Shown: in pieces, positions 9,464-15,022 of the stretch
Layout: each line of letters opens with the position of its first letter
Numbering within the stretch: the stretch's first letter is position 1
NCBI GenBank assembly: GCA_017889745.1
Contig: JAGGAG010000003.1
Location: 1 to 40,090 of the forward strand
Direction of reading: 5' to 3'
DNA: 40,090 nucleotides
From: Gemmatimonadota bacterium
GTDB lineage: Bacteria; Gemmatimonadota; Gemmatimonadetes; Gemmatimonadales; GWC2-71-9
The notes under the pieces: model-generated
Told to the model about the DNA's origin: nothing
The model's database searches: none
What the model saw: the letters and a program-made list of their open reading frames with translations, nothing else
Translations under genes and position numbers: made by a program

Positions 9464-9507
9464 AAAAAAAGCGCCCGCGGCAACGAGGCGCGGACGTCTC
9501 GCTTTTT
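9464..9507 (-). terminator. terminator-like hairpin with T7 tract, between putative promoter and thrC-like gene (attenuator candidate)
   Basis: Reverse strand AAAAAGCG-agacgtccgcgcctcgttgccgcggg-CGCTTTTTTT; 8-bp outer complementarity plus internal GC-rich pairing (e.g. GCGCC/GGCGC). Confidence 0.6.
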
Positions 9508-9568
9508 AGCATTTGTTTAACGTGGCTGCAATACGCGGCAAATGACCACGAATCAGTTGTCGTAATGA

Positions 9569-13087: not shown

Positions 13088-14806
13088 TCAGGCGGTTAAC
13101 GGCCGCACCTTCCGGCGCTCCAGATCGGGATGGACGCGCCGGGCCAGGTCGATGAACATCGGGATGTCGAGGCTCTGCGGGCCGTCACTCATTGCCTGCT
13201 TCGGGTTGGGATGTACCTCCACTATGAGTCCCGCTGCTCCCGCCGCGAGCGAGGCCTCGGCGAGCGGCGTCACCAGGCTGGCCACGCCCGCCGCATGACT
13301 CGGGTCCACCACCACCGGCAGGTGTGACCGCTCGCGAACCAGCACCACCGCGTTGAGGTCGAGCGTGTGACGGGTGGCGCGCTCGAAGGTGCGGATGCCC
13401 CGCTCGCACAGCACCACGTTGGGGTTGCCCTCCGCCAGCACGTACTCCGCCGCCATCAGCCATTCCTCGATTGTGGCCCCTGCGCCGCGCTTGAGCAGCA
13501 CTGGCACGCCGCTCCTGGCCGCGGCCCGGAGGAGGGAGAAGTTCTGCATGTTCCTGGCACCGATCTGCAGCATGTCGGCGAAGTGCGCGACCAGCGGCAC
13601 CTCCTCCCAGCTCAGCACCTCCGTGACGATCGGCAGGCCGGTGCGCTCGCGCGCCTCGGCGAGATACCGCAGTCCCTTCACCCCCAGCCCCTGGAAGTCA
13701 TAGGGCGAGGTGCGCGGCTTGAATGCGCCGCCCCGCAGCATGTCGCCGCCCGCGCTTGCCACCGCGTCCGCTGTCTCCAGGATCATCTCGCGGCTCTCGA
13801 CCGAGCACGGTCCGGCGATCAGCACCGGGCTGGCGCCACCGAACTCCAGGTGGCGCACCTTGACGATCGAGCCCTGCGGGGCGCGCCGCCGGTCGATGAG
13901 CGGGATGTCCGGCTTCTTCACGTGGTGCGCGGGCGTCGGATGGAAGATCTGGAAGCTGGGTACGCCCTCCGTCCAGGCCTCGTAGCTGCCCAGAATGATC
14001 AGTTGCGCCGCCAGTGCCTCGACTTCCTCCAGCGCCTCGGCGACGCGCGGCTCCGTGGCCGCACCTTCCACGTCGACGTAGAACCGGTAGGTCCACGGCG
14101 CCGACGGCTCGGGCCGCGACTGCAGTGCCGTGAGGTTGACGCCCCGCGCGCTGAAGGCGAGCAGCGTGTGCGCCAGCATCCCGGGGCGGTGATCGAGCGA
14201 CACGATGAGCGAGGTCTTGAACGGGCCCGAGCCGGCGGGAGCCGCTGGCGCGCCCTGGCGGCTGAAGATCAGGAAGCGGGTCTGGTTGGTGGGATCATCC
14301 TCGATCCGTTCCGCCAGAGGCACCAGGCCATGCGCCGCGGCAGCCGGCAGTGCCGCGATCGCGGCCTCGGTCGGGTCGCCATGTGCCGCCACCATCTCGG
14401 CGCTTCCAGCGGTATCCCACGCGCTGACCAGCTCGGCATTGGGCAGGTGCTTCGAGAGCCAGCGCCGGCACTGACCCAGCGCCACCGGGTGCGAGTACAC
14501 CCGCCTGATATCCTCCACCCGTGCGCCCGGCACCGCCATGATCGTGTGGTGAACGGGCAGCAGCGTCTCGTGCGTCAGGGCCAGCGTACCGTCGCCGAAC
14601 GCCTCGTGCAGCAGGTCGTAGGTGGCGGTGACCGAGCCGATCAGGGAGTTCTCGATCGGGAGGCAGCCAGCATCGGCCCGTCCCTCACGGACCGCCGCCA
14701 CCGCGTCCGCCACCTCGCGGCAGGGGATGGCTTCGAGCTCGGGCCACCGGCGTCGTGCCGCCGCTTCACTGAAGGCGCCGTGGGTGCCCTGGATGGCTAC
14801 GCGCAT
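13088..14806 (-). CDS. bifunctional prephenate dehydratase-ACT / 3-deoxy-7-phosphoheptulonate synthase (type I-beta) fusion
   Basis: PDT: IQGTHGAFSEAAA, PIENSLIGSV, DPTNQTRFLIF; ACT: SLDHRPGMLAHTLLAFSARGVNLTALQSRPEP; DAHPS: VLIAGPCSVESREMI, LRGGAFKPRTSPYDFQGLG, QIGARNMQNFSLL, VVDPSHAAG, IVEVHPNPKQAMSDGPQSL. Confidence 0.95.
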   Translation of the reverse strand: MRVAIQGTHGAFSEAAARRRWPELEAIPCREVADAVAAVREGRADAGCLPIENSLIGSVTATYDLLHEAFGDGTLALTHETLLPVHHTIMAVPGARVEDIRRVYSHPVALGQCRRWLSKHLPNAELVSAWDTAGSAEMVAAHGDPTEAAIAALPAAAAHGLVPLAERIEDDPTNQTRFLIFSRQGAPAAPAGSGPFKTSLIVSLDHRPGMLAHTLLAFSARGVNLTALQSRPEPSAPWTYRFYVDVEGAATEPRVAEALEEVEALAAQLIILGSYEAWTEGVPSFQIFHPTPAHHVKKPDIPLIDRRRAPQGSIVKVRHLEFGGASPVLIAGPCSVESREMILETADAVASAGGDMLRGGAFKPRTSPYDFQGLGVKGLRYLAEARERTGLPIVTEVLSWEEVPLVAHFADMLQIGARNMQNFSLLRAAARSGVPVLLKRGAGATIEEWLMAAEYVLAEGNPNVVLCERGIRTFERATRHTLDLNAVVLVRERSHLPVVVDPSHAAGVASLVTPLAEASLAAGAAGLIVEVHPNPKQAMSDGPQSLDIPMFIDLARRVHPDLERRKVRPLTA

Positions 14807-14841: not shown

Positions 14842-14884
14842 GCCGAAAAAGGAAACGCCCCGCCGGCTGCTGCCGGCGGGGCGT
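14842..14884 (-). terminator. Rho-independent terminator (attenuator) upstream of the PDT-DAHPS gene
   Basis: Reverse strand ACGCCCCGCCGGC-AGCA-GCCGGCGGGGCGT (perfect 13-bp stem, 4-nt loop) followed by TTCCTTTTT. Confidence 0.9.
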
Positions 14885-14905
14885 CGAGGGTCCGTTCAGG
14901 TCGCG

Positions 14906-14986
14906 CTACTGCACGCTACCGGAACCGGACGCAGCTCGAGCCGCGCCGGCGCTGGTAAAAAAGAAGTACCACGACCGTGTATTCAT
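14906..14986 (-). CDS. attenuator leader peptide MNTRSWYFFFTSAGAARAASGSGSVQ
   Basis: Codons ATG AAT ACA CGG TCG TGG TAC TTC TTT TTT ACC ... CAG TAG read on the reverse strand; W-Y-F-F-F run upstream of a terminator preceding an aromatic amino-acid biosynthesis gene. Confidence 0.85.
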   Translation of the reverse strand: MNTRSWYFFFTSAGAARAASGSGSVQ

Positions 14987-14993
14987 GCAGGGG

Positions 14994-15022
14994 AGTCTCG
15001 TTCCGGGGCCGCCGGGTGTCAA
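14994..15022 (-). promoter_or_regulatory. putative promoter of the attenuator / PDT-DAHPS transcript
   Basis: Reverse strand TTGACA (15022-15017), 17-nt spacer, GAGACT (14999-14994); leader ATG only 7 nt past the -10-like hexamer. Confidence 0.45.

Follow-up and report, generated by a model that had tools for sequence, protein, structure and literature searches.

A probable ribosome-mediated transcription attenuator with a predicted leaderless aromatic leader peptide ahead of a prephenate dehydratase-DAHP synthase fusion gene in Gemmatimonadota

The question raised by this locus is how the gene of a PDT-ACT-DAHP synthase fusion protein is regulated. The gene (572 aa; 13088-14806, minus strand; PF00800, 1.2e-55; PF01842, 8.3e-9; PF00793, 6.6e-78) joins the Phe branch (prephenate dehydratase, PDT) to the entry step of the common pathway, and a preliminary description of the region before it had proposed ribosome-mediated attenuation through a short leader peptide. 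The DNA analysed (the window; 40,090 nucleotides) is one entire contig of a fragmented metagenome-assembled genome from a soil bacterium of the Gemmatimonadota, and its closest relatives among the genome contigs searched were metagenome-assembled genomes of the Gemmatimonadales. The anatomy of the region and its conservation strongly support the proposal, and we consider it very probable that the fusion gene is controlled by a ribosome-mediated transcription attenuator, the leader of which is predicted to be translated as a leaderless mRNA.

The leader ORF (MNTRSWYFFFTSAGAARAASGSGSVQ*; 26 codons) was found on the minus strand at 14906-14986, from the ATG at 14986-14984 to the stop codon TAG at 14908-14906, and an ORF occupies the same position at 17 orthologous loci. 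The peptide begins with MNTRSWYFFFT, and the putative regulatory codons TGG TAC TTC TTT TTT (W Y F F F; W6-F10) are located at 14957-14971 (minus strand). Thus, the ORF, the codon run and their coordinates are as the preliminary description gave them, and the locus has what an attenuator calls for in this respect, a small leader ORF in which codons for the pathway's own products stand in a row. The run of five aromatic codons occurs once in the 40-kb window when both strands are counted, and no short ATG-initiated ORF with five aromatic residues in seven codons was obtained in 100 shuffles under a dinucleotide model. A codon run is present in the orthologues as well, at a nearly fixed spacing: the last aromatic codon and the core of the antiterminator (see below) are 7-9 nt apart in 16/16 orthologues.

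Promoter-like boxes, which were absent from the preliminary description, precede the leader ORF; the start coordinate of the region given there (15022) is the first base of the -35 box. The predicted sigma-70-type promoter (14994-15022, minus strand) consists of TTGACA at 15022-15017, a spacer of 17 nt and GAGACT at 14999-14994. In the alignment of the orthologues, the TTGAC box was found in 16/16 sequences with a spacer of 17-18 nt, and a -10 box of the form TAnnnT in 15/16; the window's own -10 box is poorer than those of its relatives. The distance between the -10 box and the ATG of the leader is exactly 6 nt at 13 of the 16 loci and 7-9 nt at the other three, being 7 nt in the window. In Streptomyces lividans, the distance from the -10 box to the transcription start site averages 6.3 nt, and the leader peptides documented as leaderless in that species include trpL1 (PMC8079986). 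From these two spacings, the leader RNA is predicted to start at or next to its own AUG, namely, as a leaderless mRNA. Leaderless leaders are also known for trpL of Sinorhizobium meliloti (PMC7298713) and, according to the account of Morbach 2000 given in PMC4046766, for ilvBNC of Corynebacterium glutamicum. A gene for an Fe(2+)-trafficking protein (PF04362; 15080-15388, minus strand) with no obvious relation to the attenuator adjoins it upstream.

An intrinsic terminator (14846-14884, minus strand) lies between the leader ORF and the structural gene, which starts at 14806, in the arrangement expected of an attenuator. Its 13-bp stem (14884-14872 with 14867-14855), the loop AGCA, the U-rich tail and the gap of 21 nt between the leader stop codon and the stem were all borne out as they had been described, and 90% of the cells are paired in the alignment of 16 sequences. 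As for the antiterminator, the complementarity of GCCGGCG (14950-14944) to CGCCGGC (14878-14872) that had been reported is real, but the pairing extends over 15 bp, with one mismatch and one bulge, and not over 7 bp, which makes for a much stronger antiterminator. The 5' arm, GCCGGCGCGGCUCGAG (14935-14950, minus strand), pairs with 14888-14872 (minus strand); this 3' arm, CUCGACGCCCCGCCGGC, which was assigned by folding and alignment, overlaps the 5' arm of the terminator, so that antiterminator and terminator are mutually exclusive. The antiterminator is continuous with an inner hairpin (Q; 14890-14930, minus strand), in which 14930-14922 pairs with 14897-14890 and the stop codon is in the loop; compensatory changes were found for this hairpin at alignment columns 68/108 and 69/107. 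Most orthologues are predicted to form a further hairpin of the 1:2 (protector) type, in the window UUACC..GCCGG-CGCGGC [UCGA] GCUGCG-U-CCGGU..GGUAG (14916-14958, minus strand; 5' arm from the last Phe codon), with a mean z of -1.8 versus dinucleotide shuffles and a z near zero in L005, L120 and L123. It is the least supported of the structural elements; its role would be that of the 1:2 hairpin in trpL. The mini-hairpin UGGUA/UACCA, in which the codon run had been placed, is not kept by the orthologues and was dropped as a conserved element.

The conservation of the codons and the terminator in relatives had been named as the test of the attenuation reading; a leader and a terminator were found at all of the 17 distinct orthologous fusion loci (the window included), 16 of which were taken into the alignments and folds. 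When the transcript was cut before the 3' arm of the terminator, the minimum free energy (MFE) structure consisted of the antiterminator, in a pairing equivalent to that of the window, plus the inner hairpin in 16/16 orthologues (mean z = -3.7). By these predicted folds and by pair counts, the exclusion between antiterminator and terminator is conserved: 77% of the alignment cells of the antiterminator with its inner hairpin are standard pairs versus 31-49% when the arms are slid by 1-3 columns. Seven of these pairs have changes on both sides, a number reached in 18 of 500 shuffles; the covariation is modest, since the GC-rich arms scarcely vary. A covariance model (R1) searched against 299 genomes of the class gave strong matches (E = 1e-16 to 1e-28) in the fusion clade only, all of them before the fusion gene, and its weak matches outside the clade (E > 0.001) had no aromatic leader. 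Therefore, the RNA itself is confined to the clade, and the wider set of loci described below shares the architecture but not the RNA.

From this anatomy, the following mechanism is proposed. The transcript would begin with the leader AUG or right beside it and would be translated as a leaderless mRNA to give the leader peptide. A shortage of charged tRNA-Phe (perhaps also of tRNA-Tyr and tRNA-Trp) would make the ribosome stall on W6-F10 with a footprint reaching only to about 14958-14947, so that little or nothing of 14950-14935 and the inner hairpin would be covered; that segment and the inner hairpin would then form one long hairpin, tying up the terminator's 5' arm while the 3' arm is still to be made, and read-through would follow. 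With aromatic amino acids in good supply, the ribosome would reach the UAG at 14908, cover and break the inner hairpin and part the arms of the antiterminator, and, by analogy with trpL and pheL, the terminator should win. Moving the stall mask from the first to the last Phe codon lowered the pairing of the antiterminator in the window from 0.86 to 0.57 and did not abolish it. Equilibrium folding with masked ribosome footprints, a model that permits pairing across the ribosome, did not tell the stalled state from the finished one: under any mask, the terminator prevailed in most orthologues when the RNA was full-length, and the antiterminator when it was cut. Thus, the choice between the two structures would have to be kinetic or steric.

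The mechanism is of a known kind. In Escherichia coli, the Phe leader pheL precedes the prephenate dehydratase gene pheA and mediates attenuation by charged tRNA-Phe (PMC11802643); the present leader likewise lies ahead of a prephenate dehydratase gene but differs from pheL in having no Rfam match, in being predicted to be leaderless, in the Trp and Tyr codons mixed in, and in the DAHP synthase fused to the target. The closest known system is aroR of C. glutamicum, an aromatic leader peptide (Phe-Tyr-Phe) before the DAHP synthase gene aroF with ribosome-mediated attenuation (PMC11802643, PMC4046766). The likeness is one of layout; aroR belongs to another phylum, and here there is also a Trp codon and the target is the PDT-ACT-DAHP synthase fusion. 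In S. lividans trpL1 and leuL, S. meliloti trpL and C. glutamicum ilvBNC, the transcript starts at the leader start codon, as is predicted for the present locus, but those systems concern other amino acids, genes and phyla. In a 2010 survey of attenuators, Proteobacteria and Actinobacteria were the only groups named as having leader peptides, and Firmicutes was added to them (PMC2965389), and no Phe or Tyr elements were found in a survey of Actinobacteria (PMC1262725). No report of leader-peptide attenuation in Gemmatimonadota was found in the full-text literature searched, which mostly excludes subscription journals.

Other readings of the same elements were weighed. The small ORF might make a trans-acting peptide, like peTrpL of Sinorhizobium, with the terminator serving only for release; leaderless attenuator peptides with functions in trans do exist (PMC7298713), and the tail of the peptide (AGAAR..SG.G.V) appears to be conserved in most orthologues. 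However, the tail overlaps the antiterminator and the inner hairpin, which explains its conservation, and L004 has lost 1 nt downstream of the codon run, which puts the tail in another frame while the RNA arms and the approximate position of the stop codon are retained. As judged from these sequences, it is the RNA that is kept and not the tail peptide, which argues for a cis-acting RNA, and we regard the trans-acting peptide as unlikely. Control by a T-box, a riboswitch or protein-dependent antitermination, to which aromatic genes are subject in some other bacteria, is more improbable still: no family of Rfam 15, the leader-peptide families included, attained its gathering score here (nothing but weak, unrelated matches came up at E <= 10), and the RNA is almost wholly taken up by the leader ORF and the attenuator. 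We give practically no credence to the hairpin being a mere terminator of the upstream gene with an accidental aromatic-rich ORF. That gene shares the strand, and about 58 nt separate its end from the -35 box, but a promoter-like site and the conserved aromatic ORF precede the terminator in all orthologues, and chance does not readily supply such a run, as seen in the shuffles above.

Within the attenuation reading, which amino acids are sensed has to be considered separately. The codon runs of the 17 fusion leaders encode SWYFFFT (window), SWFFYFS, VWFFYFT, YWFFFIG, SWFFYFT, FGFFFSFT, FGFCFFT, FWFFYFT, FCFLFT, RYFYFT, SWPFYFS, SWFFGYFT, GWFYFYFT, FWFFYFS, FYGFFFFT, RFFYFT and LFSYFT. The sensing of all three aromatic amino acids by one leader, which the preliminary description had raised and called unusual, is supported only in part: Phe is universal (17/17), but Tyr is present in only 14/17 and Trp in only 10/17. 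On the protein tree several gains or losses of Trp are needed; thus, in these leader sequences, Phe is the fixed component and Trp one that comes and goes. The same attenuator may sense Phe only, the Trp and Tyr codons being tolerated neighbours without a signal, a version to which we give a little less than an even chance. Phe is the sole residue common to every fusion leader, the runs of L115, L007 and L008 are without W or Y, and the ACT-PDT half of the target is an enzyme of the Phe branch; moreover, C. glutamicum aroR, with its Phe-Tyr-Phe leader, responds to Phe, and Tyr availability is without effect (PMC11802643), which is our main reason for caution. On the other hand, Trp opens the run or stands close to its start in those 10 leaders even though TGG is two changes away from TTC, the W-bearing leaders need 4 changes on the tree versus a shuffled mean of 6.2, so that Trp is not randomly scattered, and the composition of leaders follows the gene, those of DAHP synthase genes being dominated by Tyr and those of PDT and fusion genes by Phe (see below). 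We therefore regard the sensing of Phe, Tyr and Trp by a single leader as plausible but unproven.

Similar leaders are not confined to the fusion gene. Before separate PDT genes of the same order (Gemmatimonadales), 14/14 leaders (for example, VTRAFTFAFFFFGFP and MPLRSSHFCFIFFFATHS) have a terminator 19-33 nt after the stop codon, and a promoter of the leaderless type lies 5-10 nt from the start codon. In the upstream regions of a further 80 DAHP synthase genes, 17/80 were positive on the sense strand versus 0/80 on the antisense strand, with runs including YAFYYYF, WYRYGWY and WFRFYRY. Over all the loci fetched, a terminator followed 46/49 aromatic-rich ORFs of the leaderless type versus 8/64 others, a rough comparison that contains nested starts and related loci. 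Phe-dominated leaders (F > Y) made up 29/36 of those of PDT and fusion genes versus 8/29 of those of DAHP synthase genes (Fisher p = 3.6e-5, ignoring kinship; the leaders were compiled by hand). Leaders of F, Y and W with terminators, predicted to be leaderless from their sequences, are spread across the Gemmatimonadota ahead of genes for PDT or DAHP synthase and occur in some Chloroflexota as well. Attenuation in several gemmatimonadotal families, apparently always leaderless and with a codon mix following the enzyme, suggests that this strategy arises or spreads more widely than has been described. The natural series of leaders with one, two and three amino acids could also be used to test how a single leader integrates several signals. 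As for the window's own genome, no leader was seen near its two trpE-like genes and its second DAHP synthase gene (L334).

Several individual loci were also recorded. Leaders of the leaderless type that are rich in Tyr or in Trp plus Tyr, with terminators, were seen before DAHP synthase genes of several Gemmatimonadota families (L103, L105, L107, L108, L109, L261, L272, L282, L284, L289, L292, L306, L310, L324, L325 and L329). In Chloroflexota, four DAHP synthase loci (L013:1726, L014:2635, L038:2626 and L046:2567) have the same layout with very short leaders (YFYFRCPA-like, 11-12 aa), the 3' end of which (CCGGCA) has its complement, TGCCGG, further downstream but ahead of the terminator. In Anaerolineae, the leaders YWSFFYAYFY (L017:2417) and LGFFFYAYFY (L021:2386) are accompanied by a terminator, and that of L017 lies directly before an ORF resembling, by eye, an AroH-type chorismate mutase joined to PDT, followed by a DAHP synthase gene. 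Elsewhere in the window, a SAM_alpha (SAM-II) riboswitch (9487-9559, minus strand; 40.8 bits), with a hairpin and a T-run after it, was found upstream of a threonine-synthase-like gene (9430-8168, minus strand; named by eye).
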